From a virus: 30,597 bases of DNA. Of the stretch, positions 14,776 to 30,597 are shown piece after piece. Position 1 is the first letter of the stretch, and the number at the start of each line of letters is the position of its first letter. Location: positions 1-30,597 of IMG/VR virus record IMGVR_UViG_3300042516_005670. The stretch is one strand, 5' to 3'. The notes beneath the pieces are model-generated. The model was not told where the DNA came from and did no database searches. It saw only the letters and a program-made list of their open reading frames with translations. The position numbers were made by a program, and so were the translations under genes.

Positions 14776-15024
14776 TTATTCTATAGTAATTTCACCTGTT
14801 TCTAAATTAAGATTACCACTTCCGTACTTTTCGGTTAATTTAACCCCCAAATCAGCGCTAGTTTTTTCTAGTTCAACTATTTGTGATTTTAAAATAGCTT
14901 TGTTACTCTCTAATAAAGTAATTCTATATTCAAGTGAACCTAGACTAGCTAAAATATCATTTTGTTGATTTTGAAGATCTCTTAGTTGTGTAAGTTCTTC
15001 TTGTGTTAAAACTTTTGTTTCCAT
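14776..15024 (-). CDS. Small coiled-coil protein (82 aa)
   Basis: An 82-residue protein that is one long helix with heptad spacing (LRDLQNQQNDILASLGSLEY, SNKAILKSQIVELEKTSADL) and a short C-terminal motif KYGSGNLNLETGEITIE. Similar small proteins ending in a 'yG.G.id..tGEI' motif occur in many marine phages without known function, as I recall. It starts one base after the stop of the TibC-like gene region boundary and precedes the sheath. It is probably an oligomeric accessory or assembly factor. Confidence 0.65.
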   Translation of the reverse strand: METKVLTQEELTQLRDLQNQQNDILASLGSLEYRITLLESNKAILKSQIVELEKTSADLGVKLTEKYGSGNLNLETGEITIE

Positions 15025-15025
15025 A

Positions 15026-16234
15026 TTAATAAATATTAAGTATTTTGTTTAAAGCATTTATTACCATTTGAGGAGTAATAGTTTTAGAACATTCAAATTG
15101 ACGTTCTGTTCCTTTATGGAAAGGACACCATTCCCAGTCGCTAGCATCTAATCTAACTTTATTATAACACCCATTACATACACTAGAATTAAATACTCTT
15201 TCTACTCCAGTTGTAAATTCACTATCTGGAGTGCTAAATCCTGAGATCATTACTACAGGAGTTTCTACAGCCCATGATAACCAAGCTAACCCACTACCAA
15301 CTCCTATGTAAGCCTCAGCATGTTTAATGTCATTTATTCTATCTTCTAAAGGGTACTTATTACCTGATTTATTAAGAACACCTTTTATTGTAGAATTTAA
15401 TTTAGAATCGTGCCAAGCATCATTTAGGGGTTCATGGCTAATTAAAACTACTTTATATCCTTTTTGGTTTAGATATTTAATTACTTCTTGCCACCCATTA
15501 GGATGTAACCAGTATTTAGCATGAGCTGAAGCATGGGGAGAAATACAGACATATTTTCCTTTAATAGTAGATTTTTTATCTAAAATACTAATATTAGGTT
15601 TAATTTCTTTTTCTTCTAATCCTAAAATATTACTAGCTATTCTACCTAAATAACCTTGTCTAAAATCAATAGGAACTTTTCCAAAGTCAGGATTATCATT
15701 TTCATTATAATACCATCCTATATTATATTGAGCTATAATATCAGGAACTGAAGTTCCAGGGGTTATAAATTCTACTTCGGGGTATTGAGCAATAAACCAA
15801 TCATTATGAAAAGTAGAACAAATTACTTGGCAATTATGTTTTTTTCTAAATTCTTCAACATATGGAAACCACGCTAAAGTATCACCAATAGCTTTTGAAT
15901 CTAAATGTATATAAACTCTTCTACCTTTTAAATTTAAAGAATGATTAATAAATTCAGTAGTAGTATCATTATAGGTTTCATTTACAATAACTTTCCAAGG
16001 AATATAATACTTAGGACTGCATGAAGTCCACATATTATTGTTTATAGTAGTTTCGTATACAAGTTCATCAGTATTAGAATTTATAAACTTAACATTATAT
16101 TGTGCTTTTTTATCTCCTTTTATTTCAAAAAAAGGTCCATTACAAAAATGAAGAATAAATTCATTAGATGCTTCTTTAAAAGGAATATTTAAAGGTAGAG
16201 TAGAATTATATTCTTTAATTAAAATTTCTTTCAT
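15026..16234 (-). CDS. TibC/BAHT-type protein O-heptosyltransferase homologue
   Basis: A 402-residue protein matching the autotransporter O-heptosyltransferase family (TibC, BAHT) along most of its length. A beta-rich N-terminal region (1-100) is followed by the GT9-like core: VYIHLDSKAIGDTLAWFPYV (Asp112 likely catalytic), ISPHASAHAKYWLHPNGWQE for donor binding, and AYIGVGSGLAWLSWAVETPV. The C-terminal finger has Cys353, Cys356, Cys370 and Cys382 in the VCNGCYN, DWEWCPFHKGT, FECSKTITPQ context, which binds iron in TibC. Family enzymes transfer heptose from a nucleotide sugar to Ser of autotransporter repeats. Here it overlaps the GT2-GT4 gene by four bases (ATGA) and ends a modification operon. 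I infer a phage protein substrate, probably the Ser-rich fibre or sheath. The donor sugar is unknown. Confidence 0.85.
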   Translation of the reverse strand: MKEILIKEYNSTLPLNIPFKEASNEFILHFCNGPFFEIKGDKKAQYNVKFINSNTDELVYETTINNNMWTSCSPKYYIPWKVIVNETYNDTTTEFINHSLNLKGRRVYIHLDSKAIGDTLAWFPYVEEFRKKHNCQVICSTFHNDWFIAQYPEVEFITPGTSVPDIIAQYNIGWYYNENDNPDFGKVPIDFRQGYLGRIASNILGLEEKEIKPNISILDKKSTIKGKYVCISPHASAHAKYWLHPNGWQEVIKYLNQKGYKVVLISHEPLNDAWHDSKLNSTIKGVLNKSGNKYPLEDRINDIKHAEAYIGVGSGLAWLSWAVETPVVMISGFSTPDSEFTTGVERVFNSSVCNGCYNKVRLDASDWEWCPFHKGTERQFECSKTITPQMVINALNKILNIY

Positions 16235-18354
16235 AACATTTGTTTATACAAATTTTCGTAAAATTCCCAATGCTTTTCTGTAGTACGTTCTGTTTTTACA
16301 AACTTTCTAGCATTCTTAGAAACATTAATCCAATTATTTATAGAATAAGTAATTTTATCTTTAATATCATCAACATCTCTAACACAAGGAATAATACCCC
16401 ATATATTAGTATAGTCATCGTTTAGAGAAGATATAACAGCTAATCCACTAGAGCAAGCTTCAAGTACAGAAAGGCAAGGTTGGCCGGTTTCAATTTTTGA
16501 AGGATGAACCATTATAGTATGTTGTTTGTAAAGTTCTTTAATTTGTGATTTAGGAGTATCATATAATCTAGTAAGTTTACCCCAGTTTTGGTTAAGTTCG
16601 ATTAATTCATTTTCTATCCAATCTTCTCTTACAGGACCTACAATAGTAATAGGAATATCTAATTGTTTAGCAGCTCTTGCGGCTAAATAAAATCCTTTAC
16701 GATCATCATTAGCTCCAATACAAATAATTTTATGATTATTAAGATTTTTATTAAAATCTATCTTCCAATAATTAGTGTCAACTGGGACAAATCCTTTAAT
16801 TAGGTTGTCTTTATTATCAAACCAATCTATATAATAATCAGATAAAGATACAGTATGTTTAGAATAAAGATTAGCTTGTAATTGATCTTGGCTATTTGAA
16901 TGTTCTTTACCCCATAAAAAAGGATGAACATCATGTAAAGTATAAATTACATTTTTATAATTACGTTGTTTTAAAGAATGAATAAATACTCCTGAGTGGA
17001 TGTGGCATAAATCATATTCGGGGGTGTTTTTTAGAAAACTATCTAAAGAAATTAAGTCGATTTTATGTCCTCTTCTTTTACCTTCTAATATTAATTGACC
17101 TTGAACTTCTTCTAACCCACCCCACTTTCTAGGAGGAACTTGCATTCCATAACCTAAATCTATTTGAGCTATTTTTAAGCGATTTTTTCGGGATTTATTT
17201 ATTACATAAATTTTTCTATTATCTTGGACGCTCCAATAATGTCCATAAACACCACTTAAATATTGGTCTAATTGTTCAATTAGTTTATCTCCAGTACGAT
17301 TATTGCTGTAAAAGTGGGTGTTTTGAATAAACACAATTATTTCCCCATGAATAATATTATTTAAAGTTTGTTTGATTCGATCTAAATTAAAATTAATATC
17401 AACATTTACATAATGATAAGATATATTTTCTTCAAAAGAATCAAATAAAACAGTATGATCAAAAAATAATTCTTGAAGTTTTTGTTTTTGTCTTTCGTTT
17501 AGATTAAAATTATGAAAACAGATATTTTGTCTAAACTCTTCCCAATTCAATTTAGAAGCATAAGTACACTCAGCTACATCTATAATCTCATCAAAGTAAG
17601 TTATTTTTCTAACTGGGTCTAAAATAAGGTCTTTTCTTCTGTAAGAAGCTTGTTCAGATAAAATTGCTTCTCCTCTTTGATTCCATCTAACAAAATTTTC
17701 AGAATCAAAATGTTGCCTTACAATACAATTGCTTCTGGGGATGGTTAACCATTTTCCACGTTCTTCAAGCATTAAAACGTATTGCCCATCATTACTTAAA
17801 CAAACATCACCATCAACATGTTCTGGGAATTCGATTGGAATGTTTCTCCAACAACGAGTATACCCAAATACATTACTACGTCTACCTAAATTTAAAAATC
17901 CTTCTAAAAATGAATCGTTAGTTGAAGTAATATAAACTTGGTTTACATAATTATCTAAATGTTGTTCTTTAGATTGAGGTAAATGTTCATGGTATTTAAA
18001 ACCATTAAAATGAATTAAAAGTACTTCAGGGAATTTATTAAAATAATAATTAATTATTTCTAAACTATTAGGAAACATTTTATCATCAACATCCCAAGGT
18101 ACTACAATATCACCTGAGGCTGCTTTTTGGGGGTTCCACCAGTAATATTTTTTACTAGGAGCATCTTTTCTAATAATTCTAGAATCTCGAGCTACTAAAG
18201 AATCGATTACTTCTAAACTATTGTCCGTAGACATATCATCGCAAATAACCCATTCCCAGTTTTCATAAGGTTGAGAAAGGATACTTTCAGCTAATTCGTT
18301 AAGATAAGGAGCTCCATTATAACAAGGAGTAACTATAGATATTTTATTCTTCAT
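16231..18354 (-). CDS. GT2-GT4 bifunctional glycosyltransferase
   Basis: A 707-residue protein from the ATG at 18354; an in-frame TTG at 18363 is a less likely start. The N-terminal GT2 domain (about 1-230) has KISIVTPCYNGAPYLNE, the CDDMSTDNS nucleotide site and a DxD-like WDVDDKMFPN near residue 88. A poorly defined connector follows (about 230-390). The C-terminal GT4 domain (about 395-700) has LGYGMQVPPRKWGGLEEVQG, IGANDDRKGFYLAARAAKQL and ETGQPCLSVLEACSSGLAV. Two active sites suggest successive addition of two sugars. It overlaps the upstream gene by 11 bases and the TibC-like gene by 4, so all three are probably made together to build one glycan. Substrates are unknown. Confidence 0.85.
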   Translation of the reverse strand: MKNKISIVTPCYNGAPYLNELAESILSQPYENWEWVICDDMSTDNSLEVIDSLVARDSRIIRKDAPSKKYYWWNPQKAASGDIVVPWDVDDKMFPNSLEIINYYFNKFPEVLLIHFNGFKYHEHLPQSKEQHLDNYVNQVYITSTNDSFLEGFLNLGRRSNVFGYTRCWRNIPIEFPEHVDGDVCLSNDGQYVLMLEERGKWLTIPRSNCIVRQHFDSENFVRWNQRGEAILSEQASYRRKDLILDPVRKITYFDEIIDVAECTYASKLNWEEFRQNICFHNFNLNERQKQKLQELFFDHTVLFDSFEENISYHYVNVDINFNLDRIKQTLNNIIHGEIIVFIQNTHFYSNNRTGDKLIEQLDQYLSGVYGHYWSVQDNRKIYVINKSRKNRLKIAQIDLGYGMQVPPRKWGGLEEVQGQLILEGKRRGHKIDLISLDSFLKNTPEYDLCHIHSGVFIHSLKQRNYKNVIYTLHDVHPFLWGKEHSNSQDQLQANLYSKHTVSLSDYYIDWFDNKDNLIKGFVPVDTNYWKIDFNKNLNNHKIICIGANDDRKGFYLAARAAKQLDIPITIVGPVREDWIENELIELNQNWGKLTRLYDTPKSQIKELYKQHTIMVHPSKIETGQPCLSVLEACSSGLAVISSLNDDYTNIWGIIPCVRDVDDIKDKITYSINNWINVSKNARKFVKTERTTEKHWEFYENLYKQML

Positions 18355-20890
18355 AATCTTCAAACTTAATTTTTCCTTTATCTAATAAACTTTCCCCAGT
18401 AGTTTGTAAAGCAGCAGGAGCATTAATTATCCCTTTATTAACTATAGATACATTATATAATAAATCTGGGGTGTCCCAAGGTAGATTAAATACGTCTTTA
18501 AATAATGGGAGTTTAGAGGTAGGAATTAAAAGACAATGAGCCTCTGATTGTCTATCCATTATGCTAAAATCTTTGTCAATTTCTTGTTTTGGAGAATTTT
18601 TTATTTGTTTACCAAAATTAACCAAAGGTAAATCATATTCTTTAGCTAAATCATAAGCTTTATATACTAACTCTACAAATTCTGATTCAGGGATTTTGAT
18701 AACAGAATCACATTCATTTAATAGTATAGCATCTATACCTTCTACTGGAGTTTCTATAATGCCTTTTTTATGTGCTAAGTAACACCCATAGTGACCTGGG
18801 GCTAATTTATAGTAACCGGGTTCGAGGGAAACCTCATTAGGGCGTCTACAATTATGAGAAGGTGGAAGTTCTGTGTAAATAGGATTAACCATAGGATTAT
18901 ATTTAAATCCATAATCAATTAATTTAGTTAAACTTGCTATACTTTTTTGTTCTCTTTCAGATAAAGGATTAGTTAAAAGATGATTAATTTGAATGTTAGG
19001 TTTTGGGGTTTGCTGTTTAGCTATAAACAAATATAATCCAGCACCTTTATCTTCTAAATCAAAAGAAAAACCACACCTATTTAATTTATCTTTTAAAAAA
19101 TCAAGAAATTGGTGAGAAGTTATCCATTGGTGAATTTCTCCTTCTATAATTTGAATCTTTTTTAGATTATAGTCAGTTATAGTTTCAAAAAATGCTTTTT
19201 CTCCTCCTTCACAATCTATCTTAACGTAATCTATCTTATCTAAATTATATTGAGAAATAAAACTATTAATATTGATTGTACCTACTTGTTCACTATTAGT
19301 TGTTTTATTTGTAGTTGAATCACTTAAAGTACCTATACTGGAGGCTACATCTGAATAGTAGAATGTAAGTTGTTCATGGTCGGTATAACTTATAGCTTTA
19401 TCTATAACAACTACATTAGGGTATTTTTCTGTGTTTTTTCTTAAGTAATTTAAATTTAAAGATGAGGGTTCAAAACTATATACTTGTTTAGCTCCTTTAC
19501 TTAACATGTATAAAGTAGTTAAACCTATATTAGCTCCGATATCTAAAACTACCCTAGCATTATCAGGAACTACTGAATAATCTTCATTTAAAAATACTTC
19601 TACGTATGACCACCCCGCAGATTGATCAAAATTATCTCTGTGAACTTCTACTATTTCATCATTAATTCTTATGTAATCATTTTTGTTAAAATCTACAACA
19701 TTATAGGTTTTAATATAATTTTTATTTATATCATATAAGGTTATATTAATACCACTTATTACATTAGTTGAACCAACATTACACCAATACCACTCATTGG
19801 GATTAAAAGGACCCGCTTGATATACTGGGAGGTTTGTTTTGTAGTCAGATATAGTAATATAGAATTGTTCATCTAAATGGGCTAAGAAATGAGTTTTTTG
19901 ACTTTCGGCATCATACCAAAATTCAAGAAGTTCTGATTGAGTCATAGTTTTTATTTTGTTAAGGTTTTCTTCAAAGTTGTTAAATTCAAGATAATCTACT
20001 TTATCAAATTTATCAAAATAGTTTTGGTAAACTTCAAGATTATAAATTAATGTTGGTATTTGATAAGAAATAGCTTCACGGATAACTAAAGGCATTGTTT
20101 CTTTATCATTAGCTGAACCACGAGATGTAAATAAGAACAGATCCATTGCTTGGTAAAAAGCATCTACATCTGTTCGTTCATTCCACCAAATAACATTATC
20201 AGGTTTATTTTCTATTAAGGGTTCCCAATACCATTTAAAGTTATCAGCTTGATTGCCTAAACTATGAAATTGTACGTTAGGAAGTTGACGAGCATATTCA
20301 AAGAATTCTGCTTGGTTTTTTCTAGGGGTATATAATCCTACGTGCAATACATGACGTTTATTATGGTCTAATCCTAATTCACGTAATGCTTTTTCACGAT
20401 TAGGACGTTCTACATATTCAATAGGATATTCAACTAATGTTTTAGGAACATCAATGTCTTTATATTGATCAATTTGCCATTGAGAGACAAACATGAATTT
20501 GTCAGGAAAAAAACGTTTTTTAGTTGTATCATATGAAGAATCATGAGAAGTTTCTACTATAATATAATTTCTATCTGAGGTGTAAATTTGTTCAGATATA
20601 GTAGAATCCATAAACATCTCTGGAATTTCTTCTAGATGGATTATATCGGGTTGAATCTGATTAATGATATTAATAATTTCTTGTTTGTCTTCTCCTAGTG
20701 TAAAAATTTTATCAGGATCAATTAATTTAAGAATTTTATTACGAGTAACAACTAATACACCCCCAGTACAATCTACCCATTCTACAAGATAAATTTCAAA
20801 TTCGTTTTTAAGTAGTTCTATTTTTTTAGTAAGATATTGTGGTAGACCTCCTGTAGAAAGGTGTGGGGCTATATAAAGTAACTTTTTCAT
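18344..20890 (-). CDS. Three-domain GT4 - FkbM methyltransferase - GT25-like protein
   Basis: An 848-residue fusion. Residues 1-315 are a GT4 glycosyltransferase (PHLSTGGLPQYLTKKIE at the start, HVGLYTPRKNQAEFFEYA, and an E-x7-E pair at Glu264/Glu272 in ETMPLVIREAISYQIPT). Residues about 430-625 are an FkbM-type SAM methyltransferase (VVLDIGANIGLTTLYMLSKG, FEP at 473, and VKIDCEGGEKAFFE at 556), a family that O-methylates sugars. Residues about 630-848 resemble GT25 (LAPGHYGCYLAHKKGI, then AILLNECDSVI where GT25 enzymes have an EDD-type acidic site). One chain could therefore add a sugar, methyl-cap a sugar and add another. It is joined by ATGA overlap to the sulfotransferase gene. The GT25 call is the least certain. 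Confidence 0.82.
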   Translation of the reverse strand: MKKLLYIAPHLSTGGLPQYLTKKIELLKNEFEIYLVEWVDCTGGVLVVTRNKILKLIDPDKIFTLGEDKQEIINIINQIQPDIIHLEEIPEMFMDSTISEQIYTSDRNYIIVETSHDSSYDTTKKRFFPDKFMFVSQWQIDQYKDIDVPKTLVEYPIEYVERPNREKALRELGLDHNKRHVLHVGLYTPRKNQAEFFEYARQLPNVQFHSLGNQADNFKWYWEPLIENKPDNVIWWNERTDVDAFYQAMDLFLFTSRGSANDKETMPLVIREAISYQIPTLIYNLEVYQNYFDKFDKVDYLEFNNFEENLNKIKTMTQSELLEFWYDAESQKTHFLAHLDEQFYITISDYKTNLPVYQAGPFNPNEWYWCNVGSTNVISGINITLYDINKNYIKTYNVVDFNKNDYIRINDEIVEVHRDNFDQSAGWSYVEVFLNEDYSVVPDNARVVLDIGANIGLTTLYMLSKGAKQVYSFEPSSLNLNYLRKNTEKYPNVVVIDKAISYTDHEQLTFYYSDVASSIGTLSDSTTNKTTNSEQVGTININSFISQYNLDKIDYVKIDCEGGEKAFFETITDYNLKKIQIIEGEIHQWITSHQFLDFLKDKLNRCGFSFDLEDKGAGLYLFIAKQQTPKPNIQINHLLTNPLSEREQKSIASLTKLIDYGFKYNPMVNPIYTELPPSHNCRRPNEVSLEPGYYKLAPGHYGCYLAHKKGIIETPVEGIDAILLNECDSVIKIPESEFVELVYKAYDLAKEYDLPLVNFGKQIKNSPKQEIDKDFSIMDRQSEAHCLLIPTSKLPLFKDVFNLPWDTPDLLYNVSIVNKGIINAPAALQTTGESLLDKGKIKFEDYEE

Positions 20891-21708
20891 ATTTTATATT
20901 CAAAATATTTATAAAACCAAGGATAACTATCAGTTATAAATTTACAATTATCTGGTCCTAATACTTCTAAGTAATCTTCTTTTAAGGGTTCTAATTTATT
21001 TTTTATAATATGATCAGCTCCAAATCCTAATATTCTATCGTTTTCTTGGGTTATCTGATCAATTTTAGTAAATGTATGATTAAATCTAGGGATTTCCAAA
21101 TAATCATATACTATATTTAAAATTTCTTGAGGAGAATTTAACAAATCTTCAAATTTAAGAAATAAAATTTTATTAGCTTTACCTTGAGTTAGTATATCAT
21201 AAGTACGAGTTATATGAGTCCCAATTGGGTTATTACTCATATAAAATTTTAATCTATCATCTGTAGTGTTATTCTTAAAACTTTCCCACCCTACAATATC
21301 ATAATCTAAATAAAGATTTTTTCTATAAAATTTTTCCGTAGAAGCATAAATACTCCTTAAATCTCGTACTAACATTATCATTTTAGGATTAGGGTAAAAC
21401 CAATCTACAAAATCATAAGATATACCCCATGTTCGGTTTTTATCCAAAACATACTTTTTATCGGTTATACCTTCAAACCACCCAAATAAACCAGATTTAC
21501 AAAATGATTTAAAACCCTCGTCTACAATTTTAGTATCCTGAGCTTTAAATATTTCACTAGTAGAAAAAGATTTACGAGCATATACTAATAATCCCTGAAT
21601 ATCTGATGTTGGAGTAACATAAAAATCGGGATTTTGGGCTATTATATTTTGTAACAAGGTAGATCCTGCTCTAGGAAAAGAAGTATTAAAAAATATCTGT
21701 TGGGGCAT
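20887..21708 (-). CDS. PAPS-dependent sulfotransferase
   Basis: A 273-residue protein. The 5'-phosphosulfate loop is at residues 8-23 (NTSFPRAGSTLLQNII). The 3'-phosphate site is LVRDLRSIYAST, with Arg115 and Ser at about 119. LFLKFEDLLNSPQEILNIVYDYLEIPRF is the typical C-terminal region (residues about 185-212). These fit the Sulfotransfer_3-type cytosolic family that moves sulfate from PAPS to a hydroxyl or amine. No membrane segment is seen. It lies between glycosyltransferase genes with 1-4 base junctions, so sulfation of the same glycan or of Ser/Tyr on a virion protein is plausible. No PAPS synthesis gene is visible, so PAPS would come from the host. Confidence 0.85.
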   Translation of the reverse strand: MPQQIFFNTSFPRAGSTLLQNIIAQNPDFYVTPTSDIQGLLVYARKSFSTSEIFKAQDTKIVDEGFKSFCKSGLFGWFEGITDKKYVLDKNRTWGISYDFVDWFYPNPKMIMLVRDLRSIYASTEKFYRKNLYLDYDIVGWESFKNNTTDDRLKFYMSNNPIGTHITRTYDILTQGKANKILFLKFEDLLNSPQEILNIVYDYLEIPRFNHTFTKIDQITQENDRILGFGADHIIKNKLEPLKEDYLEVLGPDNCKFITDSYPWFYKYFEYKI

Positions 21709-21709
21709 A

Positions 21710-22648
21710 TTAAATTTTATTTATAGCTTCTATAATATTTTCTATGTGAAACATTTCTTCAATATTAGTATAGGGACATTCATGTTGTTTTCCTTCAAAA
21801 GAATAGTCAAATAAATAAGAATCTATTAATTTAGGTTTATTTGTAGGATTTCGGGATAGTAAATTGCTATGGAGATTATAACCAAAAACTTGAGGAGAAG
21901 TACCAATCCATAATACAACAGAAGGAAGGTTAAAAGCAGCTGCTATATGCTGTAAACTAGAATCTATTAAAATTCTTTTAGAAGAATTAACTATTAAAGC
22001 ACTTAATTGAAAATTACTAAGAACATAATCTACTACTTCAATATTTGGAATTTTTAAGGAATTTGGATGGCATACTTGTATTATGTGGTAATCTTTAGAA
22101 TAAATTTCAGAAAGAGAAACTGCTAATTCGTAAGGCATATCTCTAGTCCAAGAATAAGAATTAGTTGTAGATAAGGGACCACCATTAGTTTGTATAACCA
22201 TTATAGGCTTATCTCTTTCCCACATTAAAGTATTTTTCTTCTGTACGTAATTAACGTAAATTTGTGGGGTTTGTTTAGTATATTTAAGATTTAATAAATG
22301 ACACCAATTTTCAATTAAATGTTTCTTTTTATAAACATGTGAAGATTCAAAATAAGGTTCATGCCTAAAAATTATAGTATCTTTTCCTTCAATATAATCT
22401 TGGTAAAAATAAGGAGTAATACCATGTGTGTAAACACGGTATATATAAGGATTATTTAAAAATATTTCAGGATATCCTACAACTAAAATAATTTTTCTTT
22501 CATTATATTTAACAGATAAATCTTTTAATAAAGCTGTAGCTGCTATATGCTTTCCTAAACCTCCTTCTATATGAAAAATTAAATATTTTTCTTGAAAATT
22601 ATCAGATACTTCAATAGGGTCTATATCTAAAAGAAAAGATTCAATCAT
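21710..22648 (-). CDS. GT9 (heptosyltransferase-like) glycosyltransferase
   Basis: A 312-residue protein with a GT-B fold. The N-terminal Gly-rich loop is YLIFHIEGGLGKHIAATALL (residues 23-42). KIILVVGYPEIFLNNPYIYRVY follows near 52. The C-terminal acceptor-donor region includes IQVCHPNSLKIPNIEVVDYV and ILIDSSLQHIAAAFNLPSVV (about 226-246). This matches the GT9 pattern 'D s...H.Aaa...P.v.l.g' of ADP-heptose transferases and their relatives. It lacks the four-cysteine finger of the TibC-like gene in the same island, so the two GT9-type enzymes differ in acceptor. Start and stop junctions (ATGA overlap upstream) put it in the same operon. The sugar and acceptor are unknown. Confidence 0.75.
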   Translation of the reverse strand: MIESFLLDIDPIEVSDNFQEKYLIFHIEGGLGKHIAATALLKDLSVKYNERKIILVVGYPEIFLNNPYIYRVYTHGITPYFYQDYIEGKDTIIFRHEPYFESSHVYKKKHLIENWCHLLNLKYTKQTPQIYVNYVQKKNTLMWERDKPIMVIQTNGGPLSTTNSYSWTRDMPYELAVSLSEIYSKDYHIIQVCHPNSLKIPNIEVVDYVLSNFQLSALIVNSSKRILIDSSLQHIAAAFNLPSVVLWIGTSPQVFGYNLHSNLLSRNPTNKPKLIDSYLFDYSFEGKQHECPYTNIEEMFHIENIIEAINKI

Positions 22649-23292
22649 ACTAATCTGTCAAAAATTAATTCAGTTAAAGTATTTGAATCTCCTATTTTTC
22701 CTTTTGGTAAAATATTAAAAGATAAACTTTTTCTTACTTTATTTGTAGTATTTAAAGGAACTGAATGATATAAATAAGAAGGGAAGAGGAGTAGTAAATT
22801 ATTTTCACAGGTTATTTGATATTCATCTGTAGTAATTTCATTTTGGTTTTTATCTAAAGTATATTTGGGAGATAAATAAGAAGCGTTTATAGCCCCTAAA
22901 GTTTTATGGAATTTTATTGAAGGAGTATTTTCATCAAAATCACCATAATAAAAAACTCCTGAAATTAAGCTATTAGGGTGGGCATGTTGGTTATGAAATT
23001 GTCCTGGTTCTTTATGAGTGACCCAAGATTGAGAAAAACGATATTCAGAATAATCGTATTTTAAAACTTTTTTAGCAAAGTTTGTAACATTAGTTAATAT
23101 AAATTTTTTTAAATCAAAACATTCTTTATGATCTAAAACATAAGTATCTTTAGAATGTAAACCATAAGCTTGAGGCATATCTCCTATAAGTTCTAAACTA
23201 TCTAAAAATTGGGTAACAACAGAAGTATTACCTACATATTTTTGTATTAAAATAGGGGTTGGTAATATATTTAATATTTTAGCTTGTTCCAT
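22645..23292 (-). CDS. 2OG-Fe(II) oxygenase, 2OG-FeII_Oxy_5 type (215 aa)
   Basis: A 215-residue protein of the double-stranded beta-helix oxygenase type. GQFHNQHAHPNSLISGVFYY (residues 97-116) is the signature of the Oxy_5/TIGR02466 group, with metal-ligand candidates among His100, His103 and His105. LLLLFPSYLYHSVPL carries the distal His176, and Arg187 in KVRKSLSFNI is the likely 2-oxoglutarate contact. It opens a group of four oxygenase genes and overlaps the GT9 gene by four bases. Such enzymes hydroxylate proteins or small molecules; phages often carry them near structural genes with unproven substrates. I infer a virion protein or a sugar as target. Confidence 0.82.
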   Translation of the reverse strand: MEQAKILNILPTPILIQKYVGNTSVVTQFLDSLELIGDMPQAYGLHSKDTYVLDHKECFDLKKFILTNVTNFAKKVLKYDYSEYRFSQSWVTHKEPGQFHNQHAHPNSLISGVFYYGDFDENTPSIKFHKTLGAINASYLSPKYTLDKNQNEITTDEYQITCENNLLLLFPSYLYHSVPLNTTNKVRKSLSFNILPKGKIGDSNTLTELIFDRLV

Positions 23293-23313
23293 AATTACAA
23301 TATAATAAAAATC

Positions 23314-23889
23314 TTATAAAAAAACAAAATTAAAAGCTATAGATATTCTTTCTTTAGGACTTTCATTACGTTCAATATGATGTTTTAACCAACTCGGGAA
23401 TATTACAAATTTAGAAGTTTCAGGTTTAACGGTATAAGTTAAATCACTAAAAAAAGAATTATTACTATTAATAAAAAATTCAGCATTATCTCCTCTATGT
23501 AAAATTAAATCTCCCATATTATTATCAGGAACATCTACATAATATACTCCTGAAAGAATGCTTTTTTGGTGGTCATGTAATATGTTATAATTGTGTTGAT
23601 AATTAATATTAAACCAAATGTTGCCTAATTTTAAAGTTGGGATATTTAAATCTATACTAAATTCTTTAACTAAATCGTCTAATCCTTGAAAAAAAGTAGT
23701 TAATGATGGTGGGAAAGGAAATATTAATTCATTACTATGCCACCCCCCTCTATTAGAAATAGTAACTCCTTGAGTGTTTTCTTTTAAATTAAAACAATAG
23801 TCTTTTATAACATCATTATCAATGTTATTAACTTTACATTCCCATACAAAAGTAGGGAAAATTAAATCTTTTTTTATTTCAAATTCCAT
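23314..23889 (-). CDS. 2OG-Fe(II) oxygenase, 2OG-FeII_Oxy_5 type (191 aa)
   Basis: A 191-residue paralogue-like relative of the 215-aa oxygenase. The core is NIWFNINYQHNYNILHDHQK with His105, Asp106 and His107, then SILSGVYYVDVPDNNMGDLI. The distal site is FPSWLKHHIERNE (His170/His171), and Arg181 in ERISIAFNF is the likely 2-oxoglutarate contact. It contains GGWHSNELIF near residue 48, which is also usual for this group. It overlaps the preceding oxygenase gene by one base (TAATG) and lies 21 bases before the next. Two enzymes of the same fold side by side suggest two different targets or successive hydroxylations. Confidence 0.82.
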   Translation of the reverse strand: MEFEIKKDLIFPTFVWECKVNNIDNDVIKDYCFNLKENTQGVTISNRGGWHSNELIFPFPPSLTTFFQGLDDLVKEFSIDLNIPTLKLGNIWFNINYQHNYNILHDHQKSILSGVYYVDVPDNNMGDLILHRGDNAEFFINSNNSFFSDLTYTVKPETSKFVIFPSWLKHHIERNESPKERISIAFNFVFL

Positions 23890-24497
23890 TATTTAAAAGG
23901 TTCACCACCTACCCAAAATACTAATGCTTTTCTTTGACCTTGAATTACAGGTTTAATTCTATGCATTAAAAATGAAGGAAATATAATTACATCTCCTTGT
24001 TGACGAGGTAATTCTACAAAACTATCGTTTTTTCCATACCAAATTTCAAATTCACCTCCTTGGTATTCTGAGGGATCACTTAATTGAATTGTAAGAGAGA
24101 GTTTTCTTCTGTTAACTGCACCATATCCTATATCCATATGCCAGTCTAAATGACCACCATTTTCAGGATAAATTACATAATGAATAGCATCTGTTACATA
24201 TTTAATATCAAAATTAAATAAGTTTTCATTAGCTTCTATAACTAAGGGCTCTAAAATTTTATAAAGCCATTGAGAATCATTACTTGGAACTATATATGCT
24301 ATATCTCTATTATTGTATATGCTAGAATCAAGATTATTTAATTCGGCAGATCCAACTTTTCCTTTTTCAAAAGTATAATTATTATAAACTAAATTTTCTA
24401 GTTTATTAATCATTTCCTTAGTAAAAAATTTTGGAAAAACATAAAAATCACTAAAATTACTTTTAATAGGTGTATCTAATATAGCTCCGTAAAACAT
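23889..24497 (-). CDS. 2OG-Fe(II) oxygenase, PiuC/prolyl-hydroxylase-like (202 aa)
   Basis: A 202-residue P4Hc-type oxygenase. ENGGHLDWHMDIGYGAVNRR (residues 112-131) supplies the HxD pair His120/Asp122. KLSLTIQLSDPSEYQGGEFE is the conserved strand segment after it. GDVIIFPSFLMHRIKPV holds the distal His179, and Arg189 the 2-oxoglutarate contact. All catalytic residues are present. This group includes PKHD-type hydroxylases of bacteria and many phage proteins. It forms one transcription unit with the three other oxygenase genes. The neighbouring collagen-like fibre has no proline, so the prolyl-hydroxylase likeness does not by itself identify a target. Confidence 0.87.
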   Translation of the reverse strand: MFYGAILDTPIKSNFSDFYVFPKFFTKEMINKLENLVYNNYTFEKGKVGSAELNNLDSSIYNNRDIAYIVPSNDSQWLYKILEPLVIEANENLFNFDIKYVTDAIHYVIYPENGGHLDWHMDIGYGAVNRRKLSLTIQLSDPSEYQGGEFEIWYGKNDSFVELPRQQGDVIIFPSFLMHRIKPVIQGQRKALVFWVGGEPFK

Positions 24498-24500
24498 AAC

Positions 24501-25088
24501 TTAATTCCATTCATTATAATTAAACCAACCAGTTATTATATACTTGGTTTGTGTAAAAGAAGATAAACCTCTATGCATATGTGTCCAATCTGTGGGCCAT
24601 ATTATTAATTTACCTTCTTCTGGTTTTTCTTTATGGTCTTGATAATAAAATTGGGTTTCTCCCCCATCAGTTAAAGTATTTAAATAAATTAACCATACTA
24701 AAGACCTATAAGCTGTTTCTTTTCCACCTCTTTCATAATGGTAATTATGGTAAGCTTCCCCAGGAGTATATCTTTGAATATTAAAAAGAGTATCTATTTT
24801 TAGTGGTTGCATTCCACTTATAGATTCATAAAATTTAAATTTATAGTGTTGTAATCCTAATTCTAAAACATTAATTACGTGAGATAAAACACTACCCCAT
24901 TCAGGATCTTGAAGAAATGAAGGATCAAAAGCCAGATCAGTAGAAGCTTTATACTTTTTATCAACAGTATGTTGTCCTCCTCTAGAAATACCTCCTTCTT
25001 GTTTGTATGGAGAATCTTCAAATTTATTAATTAATTCTTTACAAATAAAAGGAGATAAAGCTTCTTTATTTTGATATATAAATTGCAT
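24501..25088 (-). CDS. 2OG-Fe(II) oxygenase with HxE metal site (195 aa)
   Basis: A 195-residue oxygenase: FNIQRYTPGEAYHNYHYERG (residues 102-121), SLVWLIYLNTLTDGGETQFY, GKLIIWPTDWTHMHRGLSSF, then KYIITGWFNYNEW. The metal site reads His117-Tyr-Glu119, so a Glu replaces the usual Asp; the distal His is 170 or 172 and Lys182 takes the place of the usual Arg for 2-oxoglutarate. The HxE form is known in phage members and normally still binds iron. It heads the four-oxygenase group, one base after the stop of the unknown coiled-coil gene. Substrate unknown. Confidence 0.85.
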   Translation of the reverse strand: MQFIYQNKEALSPFICKELINKFEDSPYKQEGGISRGGQHTVDKKYKASTDLAFDPSFLQDPEWGSVLSHVINVLELGLQHYKFKFYESISGMQPLKIDTLFNIQRYTPGEAYHNYHYERGGKETAYRSLVWLIYLNTLTDGGETQFYYQDHKEKPEEGKLIIWPTDWTHMHRGLSSFTQTKYIITGWFNYNEWN

Positions 25089-25089
25089 T

Positions 25090-25770
25090 CTATTGTATAG
25101 ATTTAAGTTGTTCTGGTTCTTTCAATTCGGGGGGTAGTGTAATAACTCCTTTTTCTTTAAGTCTTTCTAGAGTACTTAATGATCCTAAAGTATTTACAAT
25201 ATCAGCCATACCTGAGTGTTCGGTTAATGTATTAGCTCTATGATAAAGTTTTAATTGGAGAGATTCTGCTTGGTGGGTATTAACATTTTGAATGTCAAAA
25301 GATCCATCGTCTAATTCATTTTTAAGTTTAGACCATAAATTTAATTCTCTAATTCTATCTTTAGCTTCTTGTTCTAAAGAAGCTTTAGTAAATAAATTTT
25401 CGTCTAAATCTACTTGTATTTCAGCTTTTTTTAATGAATCTGTTGTTGATTCATATTTTTTATAAAGTTTTTGTCTTTTTATTTCATTTCGTCTTATAGA
25501 AAACGATAATATCATTAATTGTTCAAAATGACTACTTTGTTCTCTAACAGCTTGCCAATATTTAGAAGCATCTGTAGGGTGGTGAGCATCATTTAATACT
25601 GAAATTCTCATTTCTGTTTCGGTTCTAAAAATTTGTTTTTTAGTCCAAGTATCAGAAAGTTCATTTTTAAGTTTTAGTAAAGATTCAGCATCTTCTAATG
25701 TAAGTACATTTAAAACCGGAGTTAAATCACCAACGGGGATTAGATTAGTGTTTAAATTTGAAAGGGTCAT
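25090..25770 (-). CDS. Conserved phage protein with coiled coil, function unknown (226 aa)
   Basis: A 226-residue, mainly helical and highly charged protein. A LTLEDAESLLKLKNELSDTW segment leads to KKQIFRTETEMRISVLNDAH and DASKYWQAVREQSSHFEQLM, which read like a conserved block. A long helix follows (about 105-165) and a Pro/Glu-rich end. I recognise the block from T4-like marine phages but know no function. It lies one base upstream of the oxygenase genes and after a 56-base AT-only gap, so it may be the first gene of the modification operon. No catalytic motif or membrane segment is present. Confidence 0.65.
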   Translation of the reverse strand: MTLSNLNTNLIPVGDLTPVLNVLTLEDAESLLKLKNELSDTWTKKQIFRTETEMRISVLNDAHHPTDASKYWQAVREQSSHFEQLMILSFSIRRNEIKRQKLYKKYESTTDSLKKAEIQVDLDENLFTKASLEQEAKDRIRELNLWSKLKNELDDGSFDIQNVNTHQAESLQLKLYHRANTLTEHSGMADIVNTLGSLSTLERLKEKGVITLPPELKEPEQLKSIQ

Positions 25771-25826
25771 AAATTAATTGATTTAGATATAACATAATAT
25801 AATAAAACTTTTTTAAAAAAGCAAGT

Positions 25827-26081
25827 TTAAGGTAAAGTAACTACTATAGGCTGGCCTATTAAATTTATATCGGCGTATTCACCATAGGTTAGCCCCTCAA
25901 GAGAAGAATTTATAAGATTTTGAGCTTCTTCTTTAGTTTTTTCAATTCCTCCTTTACTTATAGCCCATTCGTAATTATCTGTAACAAAAATATCACCTAG
26001 GTATTCTTCTATGTGGTGATTGTTAGATTCTTCGTGAGTGATAAATGGATTATCTCTAAAAGTTATTAAATAGTATTTCAT
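25827..26081 (-). CDS. Small hypothetical protein (84 aa)
   Basis: An 84-residue alpha/beta protein: MKYYLITFRDNPF, a His-rich ESNNHHIEEYLGDI segment, EWAISKGGIEKTKEEAQNLI helix, and a C-terminal strand QPIVVTLP. No family is recognised. Its start lies six bases after the kelch-like gene, so it belongs to the adhesin transcript. Small soluble proteins placed after fibre genes are sometimes assembly chaperones, but nothing in the sequence shows this. Confidence 0.6.
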   Translation of the reverse strand: MKYYLITFRDNPFITHEESNNHHIEEYLGDIFVTDNYEWAISKGGIEKTKEEAQNLINSSLEGLTYGEYADINLIGQPIVVTLP

Positions 26082-26087
26082 ATATAA

Positions 26088-27158
26088 TTAAGCTAAACAT
26101 AAATATTTAAATTTAACAACTTCAGCACCGCTTAAACAAAACCTAGCTCCAGTAGCGATTGAGGGGTTATTTCCTCCCCAAGCTCCTCCATCTTGGTAAC
26201 AACCAAAAGCTATATGTCCAAACCTTCCAGCTGGCATAGCTGGTCCTGTAGACCATGTATCTGTAATCCCATTATATATCCGAGTTGTAGTACAAGTTGT
26301 ATTGTTAGCAGGAGAATTTGCCCTACCCCCAACAGCAACCGAAGCGTTAGCATCAATACCCCACCCATAAGCATTTCTCATAGCTACAGGGGCTGCGGCT
26401 TTAGCTGACCAAGCTGCTCCTGAGTAGCATTCAGTACAAGTTACTCCATTAGCGGCGGTTGTACCAAAAGATAAAGCGGAATTAGAACATCCTGCTCCTC
26501 CTCTACCGTTATCAGAAAAATTAGTACTATTTGCGGCTGCATAATTAGTACCATTATATGTTAAAGATGTTGCAGTATTAGCACCCCCACCCCAAGTAAT
26601 AACATCATTTTGAGAACTTCCTGCGGCGGCCCCAGCATTCCATGTTTGAGGGGTAGCAGTAACAGTAGACCAATTGGTACCATTATATTCTTCGGTACAG
26701 CAGCTTGCTACACCAGGAGCGACATTTCCCCCTAGAACTACTGATGAATTTTGAGATCCGGCACCAGCACCAAAATAACGAGCTGTAGCCATAGCATTGC
26801 CGCCTACCCAATTGGTACCATTATATTCTTCTGAAGTAGTTGTTCTGGCACCAGGTGCTGCGAGAATACCTCCTGCAGCTAATCCTGAAGCACCACTTGC
26901 TCCTGCAGAAGCTCCCAATCTTCGAGCATTGTTCATGCTGTTGGCAGAAGTCCATGCTGGTTCTTGTTCGTTTACTGCTATACCTATTTTTTGTATACAG
27001 GAATTTAACCATATAGAACCTGTAGGAATTGAGGTAGTAGGAGGATTTCCTGTGGGAGTACTATAAAGGGGTAATACAAAACGCATATTCCCTGTGGGGG
27101 TTTGGGGGCGAAGATAAAAACAACTATTGTTTAATTCAATATCTGTAAATTGTGCCAT
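26088..27158 (-). CDS. Kelch-like beta-propeller tail fibre/adhesin protein
   Basis: A 356-residue protein. After a non-repeated N terminus (1-60; SCFYLRPQTPTGNMRFVLPL) it has about five repeats of 43-50 residues. Each is marked by a Y-N/S-G-x-x-W/Y strand: EYNGTNW at 111 and 157, YNGTNY at 201, CYSGAAW at 244 and IYNGITDTW at 294. Between them lie small-residue segments with paired Gly (ARYFGAGAG, DVITWGGGA, SVAVGGRA). This is the kelch motif spacing and suggests a five-bladed or incomplete propeller. Phage kelch-like proteins are usually surface-exposed receptor-binding or decoration parts. It lies between two small proteins and downstream of the collagen-like fibre, consistent with an adhesin set. 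The two Cys pairs are unusual for an exposed fibre. Confidence 0.75.
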   Translation of the reverse strand: MAQFTDIELNNSCFYLRPQTPTGNMRFVLPLYSTPTGNPPTTSIPTGSIWLNSCIQKIGIAVNEQEPAWTSANSMNNARRLGASAGASGASGLAAGGILAAPGARTTTSEEYNGTNWVGGNAMATARYFGAGAGSQNSSVVLGGNVAPGVASCCTEEYNGTNWSTVTATPQTWNAGAAAGSSQNDVITWGGGANTATSLTYNGTNYAAANSTNFSDNGRGGAGCSNSALSFGTTAANGVTCTECYSGAAWSAKAAAPVAMRNAYGWGIDANASVAVGGRANSPANNTTCTTTRIYNGITDTWSTGPAMPAGRFGHIAFGCYQDGGAWGGNNPSIATGARFCLSGAEVVKFKYLCLA

Positions 27159-27167
27159 AATAAAAAT

Positions 27168-27395
27168 TTAAACTGCTTCTAAAGCTTGCCATGTAAAAGG
27201 AGGACCACCACCATCATCTATACTGAAATACATAAGGCCGTCACTTGCATTATAGGCTAATACTCCTACATAATCAGGGTTTTCACCAGTATTTGCTATT
27301 GTACCAACTATAAAGGATGTATCAAATGTTTCAGTAACATCACGATTAACTGTAAGTGAACCGCATGTAGTATCGTTATCGCTTTCTAATGTCAT
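27168..27395 (-). CDS. Small beta-rich protein, adhesin region (75 aa)
   Basis: A 75-residue acidic protein with alternating strands (GSLTVNRDVTETFDTSFIVG, YVGVLAYNASDGLMYFSIDD) ending GGGPPFTWQALEAV. The form 'VGVLAYNaSDGlMYfS..' followed by W-x-x-L is like the short tip modules of tail fibres. It lies 10 bases after the previous small gene and 9 before the kelch-like gene. Structural accessory or fibre tip is the likely role; no specific family is assigned. Confidence 0.62.
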   Translation of the reverse strand: MTLESDNDTTCGSLTVNRDVTETFDTSFIVGTIANTGENPDYVGVLAYNASDGLMYFSIDDGGGPPFTWQALEAV

Positions 27396-27405
27396 AATTT
27401 ATTTT

Positions 27406-27642
27406 TTAAGGTGTTGGGTAAAGTCGTATTTCAAATACAGTAGAATTTCCTAAAAATTGAACAAGTCCCCTACCACTATTCCAACAAATAGCTCCATCTG
27501 TACTTAACATATTAGAAAGAGTAGTACCACCAGCCCGTCTATTAGGTAAAACACATTTTCCACCATTATTTACTTTAAACTGGTTAGCATTGCTTATATT
27601 ATTATATGCGGTGACATTGCTTTGATTAATAGTAGTACTCAT
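27406..27642 (-). CDS. Small beta-rich protein, adhesin region (78 aa)
   Basis: A 78-residue protein starting MSTTINQSNVTAYNNISNAN, then QFKVNNGGKCVLPNRRAGG, SNMLSTDGAICWNSGRGLVQ, and a final strand VFEIRLYPTP. The 'G.icWNs..g.vq' style resembles the tip module seen in its neighbour (GVLAYNASDGLMYF), so the two may be divergent copies. Its ATG lies next to the stop of the collagen-like fibre gene, implying coupling. It may be a fibre tip or decoration subunit. Function is not known. Confidence 0.62.
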   Translation of the reverse strand: MSTTINQSNVTAYNNISNANQFKVNNGGKCVLPNRRAGGTTLSNMLSTDGAICWNSGRGLVQFLGNSTVFEIRLYPTP

Positions 27643-27643
27643 A

Positions 27644-30597
27644 TTATTTATTTTCTAATTTAATTATTCTATCTAGTAATTCCTTAATAAATATAGTTTG
27701 ATTTTCAATTTTTATATTTAACTCTTTCATAGCTTCAATTAAAATTGCTACTACACGTGAGTATTCTACACCTTGAACTTCACCATTTTTATTAAAGCTT
27801 ACTAGTTCTGGGAATATCTGGTAAATTTCTTCAGCTATTAAACCAATTTCTTTAACGTCATTTCCAATTCTGTTGTAAGTTACACCTCTTAATTTTAATA
27901 AACTATTTAGAGGTTCTGGAATTGTTACAATATTTTCTTTGATTTTCTGAGTTGAAGTTTCAACAATATTACCTGTAACTGTTAAAGTAGTACCATCAAA
28001 TGTTAAATTAGTTTCACCATTGAATGGGGTACTGGAGTTACCAGTCATAGTAACTACGTTGTTGTTTACGTTACCACCCACGATTGCTGAAGTTGAGTTA
28101 CCTGAAGAGCCTGAAGTGCCTGAGTTTCCTGAGTTACCTGAAGAGCCTGAGGTACCATTGTTTCCTGAGTTACCGCTTGAGCCCGAGGTACCGTTGTTTC
28201 CTGAGTTACCTGAAGAACCAGAAGTACCGTTGTTTCCTGAGTTACCTGATGAGCCTGAGGTACCATTGTTTCCTGAGTTACCTGTTGAGCCTGAGGTTCC
28301 TGAGTTTCCTGAGTTACCTGAAGAGCCTGAGGTACCATTGTTTCCTGAGTTACCTGTTGAGCCTGAGGTTCCTGAGTTTCCTGAGTTACCTGAAGAGCCT
28401 GAGGTACCGTTGTTTCCTGAGTTACCTGATGAACCTGAAGTACCGCTGTTTCCTGAGTTACCTGTTGAACCTGAAGTTCCTGAGTTACCTGAGTTACCTG
28501 TTGAGCCTGAAGTTCCTGAGTTACCTGAGTTACCTGTTGAGCCTGAAGTTCCTGAGTTACCTGAGTTACCTGTTGAGCCTGAAGTTCCTGAGGCACCTGA
28601 TGAACCTGAAGTACCGCTGTTTCCTGAGTTACCTGTTGAACCCGAGGTTCCTGAGGCACCTGATGAACCTGAAGTTCCTGAGTTTCCTGAGTTACCTGTT
28701 GAACCCGAGGTTCCTGAGGCACCTGATGAACCTGAAGTACCGCTGTTTCCTGAGTTACCTGAAGAGCCTGAGGTACCATTGTTTCCTGAGTTACCTGTTG
28801 AGCCTGAGGTTCCTGAGTTACCGCTTGAACCAGAGGTACCATTATTGCCTGAGTTACCTGTTGAGCCTGAGGTTCCTGAGTTTCCTGAGTTACCTGAAGA
28901 GCCTGAGGTACCGTTGTTTCCTGAGTTACCTGATGAACCTGAAGTACCGCTGTTTCCTGAGTTACCTGAAGAGCCTGAGGTACCATTGTTTCCTGAGTTA
29001 CCTGTTGAGCCTGAGGTTCCTGAGTTACCTGAGTTACCTGTTGAGCCTGAAGTTCCTGAGTTTCCTGTTGAGCCTGAAGTACCACGTGAACCCGAAGAAC
29101 CTGCTGAGCCTGAAGTTCCTGAGTTACCGCTTGAACCAGAGGTACCATTGTTGCCTGAGGCACCTGATGAACCTGAAGTGCCAGCTGAACCTGAAGTTCC
29201 AGAGTTACCGGTTGAACCTGAAGTACCCTGTGAACCTGAAGTACCTGCTGAGCCTGAAGTACCAGTTGAACCAGATGTACCTGTTGAGCCTGAAGTTCCT
29301 GAGTTACCTGAAGAGCCTGAGGTACCATTGTTTCCTGAGTTACCTGTTGAGCCTGAAGTTCCTGAGTTACCTGAAGAGCCTGAGGTACCATTGTTTCCTG
29401 AGTTACCTGATGAGCCTGAGGTACCATTGTTTCCTGAGTTACCGCTTGAGCCCGAGGTACCGTTGTTTCCTGAGTTACCTGAAGAGCCTGAGGTACCATT
29501 GTTTCCTGAGTTACCTGTTGAGCCTGAGGTTCCTGAGTTACCGCTTGAACCAGAAGTACCATTGTTGCCTGAAACACCTGATGAGCCTGAAGTGCCTGCC
29601 GAACCCGAAGTGCCTGAGTTACCGCTTGAACCAGAGGTACCATTGTTTCCTGAGGCACCTGATGATCCTGAAGTGCCTGCTGAACCCGATGTACCCGAGT
29701 TACCGGTTGAGCCTGAAGTACCACGTGAGCCTGATGTTCCAGTTGAACCTGAGGTACCACCTGAACCCGAAGTACCGGATGAGCCTGAAGTACCTACTGA
29801 ACCTGAGGTTCCTGAGTTACCTGATGAGCCTGAAGTACCCTGTGAGCCTGAAGTACCTGCTGAGCCTGAAGTGCCTGAATTACCTGATGAGCCTGAGGTA
29901 CCATTGTTGCCTGAGGCACCTGATGAGCCTGAAGTGCCTGCTGAACCCGATGTACCCGAGTTACCGGTTGAGCCTGAAGTACCCTGTGAACCCGAAGTAC
30001 CTGCTGAGCCTGAAGTACCAGTTGAACCAGATGTACCTGTTGAGCCTGAGGTTCCTGTTGAACCTGAGGTTCCAGAATTACCTGTTGAGCCTGAAGTACC
30101 TGCTGAGCCTGAAGATCCTGCTGAGCCTGAAGTGCCTGAGTTACCACTTGAACCAGAGGTACCATTATTTCCTGAAACACCTGATGAGCCTGAAGTGCCT
30201 GCTGAACCCGAAGTGCCTGAATTACCGGATGAACCAGAGGTACCATTATTTCCTGAAACACCTGATGAGCCTGAAGTTCCAGTTGAACCAGAGGTTCCAG
30301 AGTTACCTGTTGAACCTGAAGTACCTGCTGAGCCTGAAGTACCTGAATTACCTGATGAGCCCGAAGTACCTACTGAACCTGAGGTTCCTGAGTTACCTGA
30401 TGAGCCTGAGGTACCAGTTGAACCAGATGTACCAGTTGAACCAGATGTGCCTGAGTTACCGGATGAACCAGAGGTACCAGTTGAACCAGAAGAACCGGCT
30501 GAGCCTGAAGTGCCAGTTGAACCAGATGTTCCAGCTGAGCCTGAAGTGCCAGTTGAACCAGATGTACCACCTGAACCTGAGGTTCCTATTGAACCTG
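27644..30597 (-). CDS. Collagen-like Gly-X-Y tail fibre with C-terminal S74 self-cleaving chaperone (5' end outside window)
   Basis: One frame is open from the window edge to the stop at 27644, at least 983 residues. The first about 834 visible residues are Gly-X-Y triplets ([15 protein letters not shown]), then [13 protein letters not shown], a short beta module ([18 protein letters not shown]) and an S74 intramolecular chaperone domain ([54 protein letters not shown]) ending in a coiled coil. Aligned to the SSxxxKxNI site of the family, cleavage is expected before the Ser coded at about 27955, freeing a fragment of about 103 residues after trimer folding. A GTG at 28081 inside the gene is not the start. 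Long proteins reported in other frames here are artefacts of the repeat. It should be a long trimeric fibre; receptor binding is inferred. Confidence 0.88.
28094..30595 (-). repeat. Gly-X-Y coding repeat array, 9-base unit
   Basis: Exactly 2502 bases, or 278 units of 9 bases, with Gly codons (GGT/GGC/GGA) in phase from end to end. X is mostly Ser, Thr or Asn; Y is mostly Ser, Asn, Thr or Ala, with rare Val, Ile and Gly. I saw no Pro or Lys. The part nearer the C terminus has a 36-base higher-order period (GTS GSx GNS GNx); the part near the window edge is mainly an 18-base period (GTS GSx). It continues beyond the window. Confidence 0.9.

Follow-up and report, generated by a model that had tools for sequence, protein, structure and literature searches.

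The 30,597-base IMG/VR virus record IMGVR_UViG_3300042516_005670 (the window; a fragment, so that gene counts refer to it only) carries a myovirus tail region in which a block of glycan-modifying genes is sited between the tail sheath and a collagen-like fibre, and the relation between one of these enzymes, a TibC-like protein, and the fibre is the subject of this analysis. The sheath, the small gene next to it, the island genes, and the fibre lie on the minus strand. The sheath (12599-14683; PF04984 54.8 bits, PF17482 44.6 bits) is accompanied by tube, tape-measure and baseplate-like genes, recognised by position and appearance, and is separated from the TibC-like gene by a small coiled-coil-like gene (14776-15024), identified by synteny within a conserved order. 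Nine island genes then occupy 15026-25088, a total of 10,063 bases in which neighbouring genes are -20 to +21 bases apart. An earlier note, made from the letters of this DNA, had described such a nearly gapless block of about 10 kb between the fibre set and the sheath, and the spacings bear it out. Starting at the sheath, the island encodes the TibC-like protein, a protein with glycosyltransferase (GT) domains of families GT2 and GT4, a protein joining GT4, FkbM methyltransferase and GT25-like domains, a sulfotransferase, a GT9-fold protein, and four 2-oxoglutarate (2OG)-Fe(II) oxygenases. The phage-encoded glycosyltransferases thus adjoin virion genes, with the sheath on one side and the fibre on the other, as in phage virion glycosylation systems.

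The TibC-like protein (15026-16234; 402 amino acids, aa) matched TIGR04414 with 334.7 bits against a curated cut-off of 200, and the solved TibC structure 4rap with E=3.8e-68, in keeping with the earlier claim of a TibC-like part for starting a protein-linked glycan. The catalytic base D118 corresponds to TibC D110, and the sugar-binding residues K240, R299, and W318 correspond to TibC K230, R286, and W305; TibC T226 is replaced by Ser. Residues C353, C356, C370, and C382 align with the TibC iron-finger cysteines C339, C342, C358, and C370, which are required for TibC activity (PMC4358343). The four-Cys finger was lost in one relative (L060). By sequence the protein is a member of the TibC/BAHT family of protein O-heptosyltransferases and the probable initiating enzyme of the island; its donor sugar is uncertain. 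No autotransporter substrate was recognised in the window, where the neighbour is a Gly-Ser/Thr tract.

This tract forms most of the fibre frame (27644-30595), which terminates in a Peptidase_S74 intramolecular chaperone (27644-28093; PF13884 38.8 bits, cut-off 22) and runs off the contig end. It covers 28094-30595 as one unbroken run of 278 Gly-X-Y triplets (834 residues), mostly GTS, GNS, GSS, and GST. Ser (298), Thr (122), and Asn (103) supply the hundreds of sites that had been noticed earlier; Ser and Thr make up 50% of the residues, and Pro, Lys, Asp, Glu and aromatic residues are absent. In a near-identical record the frame reaches at least 1,720 aa, and a non-collagenous stretch separates segments of the tract. 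The unbroken Gly-X-Y repeat and the trimerising Peptidase_S74 domain make the fibre collagen-like, and an actual triple helix is uncertain because Pro is absent. The composition of the tract and its presence in relatives make it the probable acceptor. The earlier note had proposed looking for hydroxylated peptides of the fibre; collagen prolyl or lysyl hydroxylation of the tract by the 2OG enzymes was rejected, as neither Pro nor Lys occurs in it.

The tail sheath was used as a comparison marker blind to TibC. Of the records that it yielded, 39 were 10 kb or longer; TibC was present in 12 of these and absent from 27. The contigs compared throughout are fragments, so absences carry little weight. 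The strict tract, defined in this test as the DNA pattern G[ST][ST]x4, was present in 7 of the 12 TibC-positive records versus none of the 27 TibC-negative ones (p=5e-5). Some of the TibC-positive exceptions were cut contigs or contained a tract by a looser residue count (L124, L152), and one TibC-negative relative (L137) had a looser tract of 111 residues. On the sheath tree, in which both search sets were mixed, the distribution of TibC needs 11 changes, at least 6 of them on well-supported branches. The strict pattern occurred in 27 of 41 whole TibC-phage records, nearly all records longer than 35 kb included. The reverse test started from contigs longer than 20 kb, with 50 picked by a Ser/Thr tract and 41 by Pro-rich Gly-X-Y. 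TibC was found in 18 of the 50, and the idea that the tract implies TibC was dropped on that count. Among the Pro-rich contigs, for which a host or GC bias is possible, TibC was found in 1 of 41; that contig also bears a Ser/Thr tract, leaving 0 of 40 without it. The comparison of 18/50 with 0/40 indicates that TibC follows Ser/Thr composition and not collagen-likeness as such. A separate observation on the sheath is that relatives of the phage lineage have tandem duplicated tail-sheath genes (L100, L106, L110, L126, L127).

We further ran the phage TibC alignment against 84,980 species genomes and built a tree of 134 rows, which split into two clades with 100% support in the Shimodaira-Hasegawa-like approximate likelihood ratio test (SH-aLRT). 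The canonical clade (57 rows) includes the solved TibC, and many of its members stand beside large Gly/Ser/Thr/Asn-rich proteins, as autotransporters would be; a Gly-Ser/Thr tract was near the enzyme in none of the 57. The second clade (77 rows) holds all phage copies together with those of Methylococcaceae, Polaromonas, Oxalobacteraceae, and uncultured Gammaproteobacteria, its chromosomal copies being gammaproteobacterial or from Burkholderiales, and 38 of the 77 rows have a tract near the enzyme. At chromosomal second-clade loci scoring above 340 bits the tract was present in 12 of 15, a count from which L162 and L163, phage-like contigs of Flavobacteriia bins, and the phage-like loci L170 and L174 are excluded. 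Where flanks were checked, they hold chromosomal genes (pyruvate kinase, LysR, histidine kinase, Rieske oxygenase, helicase). The bacterial carriers of the tract are small lipoproteins with an LAGCGGG-type lipobox (L175-L178, L191) or, in L164, a 293-aa exported protein. The strict six-triplet pattern occurred in 7 of 12 whole genomes (1.9-5.5 Mb); in six of these every strict match lay within about 2.5 kb of TibC, and in the seventh a looser tract adjoined the enzyme, while the strict matches lay on the same contig at a distance of about 17 kb. A draw of 321 gammaproteobacterial genomes contained the second-clade enzyme in two, both with an adjoining tract (p=1e-4), and genuine Gly-Ser/Thr tracts in only two of the remaining genomes, the further matches to the pattern coming from short DNA repeats that code for different residues; this draw had G088 at its centre, and the organism of G391 is probably that of L179, which makes the draw a background estimate without new cases. 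What argues most strongly for the repeat as substrate is that unrelated carrier proteins share it next to one and the same enzyme clade. At three gammaproteobacterial loci, a gene of unknown function (DUF6502, PF20112) lies directly upstream of the tract-clade TibC and beside the tract lipoproteins (L178:9075-9917, L177:9120-9950, L191:9181-10017), and is possibly a third member of the bacterial set.

The remaining island genes encode the enzymes expected of glycan extension and decoration. The GT2 + GT4 protein (16231-18363; 710 aa) matched PF00535 with 63.7 bits and PF00534 with 36.5 bits, and synteny identifies its GT4 half as the conserved TibC-adjoining gene of relatives. The next protein (18344-20890; 848 aa) has a GT4 domain (PF00534 43 bits), an FkbM methyltransferase domain (PF05050 66.4 bits; FkbM 83 bits against a cut-off of 37.7) and a C-terminal GT25-like domain. 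Pfam did not detect the last in the window protein itself; PF01755 (GT25) was matched by 13 of 15 alignment rows from relatives. The model of this domain (predicted local distance difference test, pLDDT, 80.5) had human COLGALT1 as its top solved fold (E=7.7e-8, TM-score about 0.53); Mimivirus R655 and bacterial GT25 enzymes ranked lower. COLGALT1 is itself a GT25 enzyme, and the fold match therefore indicates family, not substrate. The sulfotransferase (20887-21708; 273 aa) matched PF13469 (48.4 bits, cut-off 27) and PHROG 27463. The 312-aa protein (21710-22648) matched PF01075 below cut-off (18 bits), and GT9/heptosyltransferase folds ranked top for its AlphaFold model, a weak one (pLDDT 66). 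The four 2OG-Fe(II) oxygenases are a (22645-23292; PF13759 66 bits, PHROG 81), b (23314-23889; PF13759 78.9 bits, PHROG 81), the PKHD/YbiX-like c (23889-24497; PF13640 56.2 bits, NF003974 71 bits, below cut-off), and d (24501-25088; PF13640 44.6 bits, PHROG 61); a PDB sequence search with one of them gave no match. The FkbM methyltransferase, sulfotransferase, and four oxygenases named in the earlier note all exceeded curated cut-offs. Its "at least seven" glycosyltransferase domains were reduced to six (TibC/GT9, GT2, GT4, GT4, GT25-like, and the second GT9-fold). As it had also stated, the island seems to lack such parts as a flippase or a polymerase: comparison of its proteins with Pfam, NCBIfam, and PHROGs brought up neither of these and no clear membrane GT, the sole contrary lead being a weak GtrB-like PHROG match to the GT2 domain (E=3e-6).

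Synteny was compared in 79 viral loci retrieved with the TibC protein. The recurring order was Gly-X-Y fibre, GT4 protein, GT4, TibC, small coiled-coil-like gene, sheath, and tube, the first GT4 protein often bearing an FkbM or GT25-like domain. The conserved core is the fibre, two GT4 domains, and TibC. Only some relatives have the sulfotransferase, GT2, the second GT9, and most of the 2OG genes. Because FkbM, GT2, the sulfotransferase, and the majority of the 2OG genes vary among relatives, they look like optional decoration and not like core parts. GT4-TibC fusions were common, and second-clade TibC was often fused to GT4 or FkbM. Microcystis phage Mel-JY01 (L081:4750-8430; PP395634.1, WWT39291.1) encodes a GT4 + methyltransferase + TibC fusion that is annotated only as an FkbM methyltransferase. 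Three side observations concern the mobility of these genes. Relatives of oxygenase c recur by Ser/Thr Gly-X-Y fibres even without the rest of the island (L067-L076, L105, L152, L258, L285, L293). The GT9-fold and sulfotransferase genes move as a pair in other phages (L329:5621-6511 and 7796; L130:4658-6360), in L130 without TibC in the available sequence. A 422-aa gene at 643-1911 of the window resembles a DNA polymerase fragment by eye and has no Pfam match; its homologues stand directly downstream of TibC, with no sheath there, in L036, L037, L038, L056, and L060, which suggests module shuffling.

The supply of the donor sugar was also considered. The HldE cytidylyltransferase domain of ADP-heptose synthesis was above cut-off in 11 of 15 genomes with second-clade TibC. 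Among 26 phage records, two had a GmhA-like match and one a weak HldE-domain match, none above cut-off, and phage-made heptose was rejected as a general feature. A "cytidylyltransferase like protein" near TibC in Mel-JY01 proved not to be HldE-like. The donor is probably supplied by the host. The two GmhA-like SIS-domain proteins, just below cut-off, lie in L239 (1480-2064; the 330-kb record of L065) and L240 (the 121-kb record of L063), and these phages possibly share in heptose supply.

The gene content, the intact catalytic and iron-finger residues of the TibC-like enzyme, and the co-occurrence of enzyme and tract in phages and bacterial chromosomes are established. We consider it likely that the phage glycosylates its own collagen-like fibre, with the TibC-like enzyme acting on Ser (perhaps Thr) and the other enzymes elaborating the glycan. 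The reaction, donor sugar, order of steps, glycan on virions, and benefit that follow are predictions from genomes. The fibre would be glycosylated in the host cytoplasm ahead of virion assembly. The TibC-like enzyme would attach the first sugar, probably a heptose drawn from host ADP-heptose, to Ser and perhaps Thr of the Gly-Ser/Thr-Ser/Thr repeat; the two GT4 domains of the conserved core would lengthen the glycan, and the GT2, GT25-like, second GT9, FkbM, and sulfotransferase activities would contribute lineage-specific decoration. The benefit would most likely be a proline-free fibre that is stiffened, solubilised, and protected; shielding or receptor effects are possible. The earlier suggestion of virion self-glycosylation is strongly supported by these comparisons for the fibre, whose tract tracks the enzyme in phages and bacteria. 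It is not supported for the sheath, as short-sheath relatives with TibC are common, and neither are the benefits that the note had named as possible, hiding from host defence and tuning of receptor binding. That note had proposed a search of related genomes for co-occurrence of the island with Gly-X-Y fibres, and had named as counter-evidence relatives keeping the island without any Ser/Thr-rich fibre or sheath insertion. The tract tracked TibC in phages and, independently, on bacterial chromosomes, and the counter-evidence did not appear: three relatives with most of the island (L042, L043, L046) had 80-470 strict matches per record.

Several points weigh against glycosylation of the fibre. 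The Fisher tests count related records as independent, and 32 of the 50 tract contigs have no TibC in the available sequence, so the tract does not require TibC. TibC has been demonstrated to modify Ser and not Thr (PMC4358343), whereas the fibre tract holds both, and the TibA acceptor is a beta-helix, whereas the tract is a Gly-X-Y repeat. TibC P300, a determinant of donor stereochemistry, is Gly in the window enzyme, and the transferred sugar may therefore differ from that of TibC.

Four other explanations were weighed. When glycosyltransferase clusters lie in the host-recognition region of an aquatic myophage, the usual reading is that they alter the host surface (lipopolysaccharide or capsule) and so block superinfection; pelagimyophage clusters were read in this way (PMC7029224). 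GT9, GT2, GT4, and GT25 enzymes build lipopolysaccharide too, and the GtrB-like match of the GT2 domain fits this role; individual decorating genes could act on the host. For the island we nevertheless regard it as unlikely: enzymes of the TIGR04414 family glycosylate proteins (PMC4358343), it is a protein repeat that the window enzyme and its relatives accompany in phages and bacteria, and the island has no recognised flippase or polymerase. That the phage enzyme targets another virion or host protein (sheath, kelch-like fibre, or host autotransporter) draws on the autotransporter beta-helices that are the natural TibC substrates (PMC4358343) and on a Ser/Thr-rich insertion in the window sheath, and is quite unlikely: the tract is the common element of phage and bacterial second-clade loci, and short sheaths without the insertion were found with TibC. 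The insertion itself was discarded as a target, because long (about 695 aa) and short (about 577-580 aa) sheaths both occurred with and without TibC. Fibre regions are swapped as blocks and the island adjoins the fibre, so TibC and tract might hitch-hike as a mobile tail-fibre cassette with no enzyme-substrate relation; the recurrence of the pairing on bacterial chromosomes with unrelated carriers, and its failure for Pro-rich collagen-like phage contigs, make this improbable. Hypermodification of phage DNA is performed by other phage glycosyltransferases (literature cited in PMC12619734), and some 2OG enzymes act on nucleic acids. It is most implausible here: the TibC family glycosylates proteins, no base-modification gene was recognised in the window (a fragment), and the enzyme-tract link would be left unexplained.

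Beyond glycosylation of this fibre, we tentatively suggest that the second TibC clade, in phages and some bacteria, may be a dedicated O-glycosyltransferase for proline-free Gly-Ser/Thr-Ser/Thr tracts, the O-glycans replacing the role of proline and hydroxyproline. With dense O-glycans, a surface lipoprotein or a long fibre would stay rigid and soluble and would resist proteases. Thr is glycosylated in some natural collagens, an analogy for such a stabilising role. Hydration by the sugars of BclA offers another (PMC8968730). The match of an enzyme clade to the repeat that would accept its sugars leads to the prediction that phage fibres and bacterial lipoproteins are glycosylated. It also proposes a specific substrate for glycosyltransferase clusters of many aquatic phages, to which a role in modifying the host surface or DNA is usually given, suggests a way for a collagen-like repeat to function without proline, and provides a candidate enzyme that would O-glycosylate Gly-Ser/Thr repeats.

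Protein heptosylation of the TibC type is known, and so are glycosylated phage virions and phage fibres that resemble collagen; their combination was not found in the open-licence literature, where no paper joined phage, collagen-like, glycosyltransferase, and heptosyltransferase, and where collagen-like and heptosyltransferase came together in a single paper, on Cronobacter autoaggregation. Mycobacteriophages likewise encode glycosyltransferases and have glycosylated virion proteins (Freeman et al. 2023, as cited in PMC12619734); there the capsid and tail-tube C-termini are modified, whereas here the predicted target, known from genes alone, is a collagen-like fibre and the initiator is TibC-type. 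Aquatic myophage host-recognition clusters share GT genes amid tail-fibre genes, and the excerpts of PMC7029224 contain no link to TibC or the tract and interpret the pelagimyophage clusters as modifying the host O-chain. Bacillus BclA is alike in its Gly-X-Y repeat, which bears Thr/Ser-linked sugars where the glycan here is predicted; repeats of the BclA type include Pro and are part of the spore coat of a Gram-positive bacterium (PMC8968730), whereas the present tract has no Pro and is paired with a TibC-clade enzyme. Mimivirus, in which collagen is hydroxylated and glycosylated, also has its own collagen-like proteins and modifying enzymes, but modifies Lys, which the present tract lacks, with an unrelated initiating enzyme (PMC8968730). 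The closest system is BAHT (TibC, AAH; TIGR04414), with which the window enzyme shares the fold, catalytic residues, and four-Cys iron finger, and whose cytoplasmic O-glycosylation of repetitive Ser-rich proteins is the activity proposed here. The window enzyme differs in belonging to a separate clade, in the Gly at TibC P300, and in the partner of its clade: BAHT enzymes are paired with an autotransporter beta-helix, whereas here phage fibres or lipoproteins bear a Gly-Ser/Thr-Ser/Thr tract.

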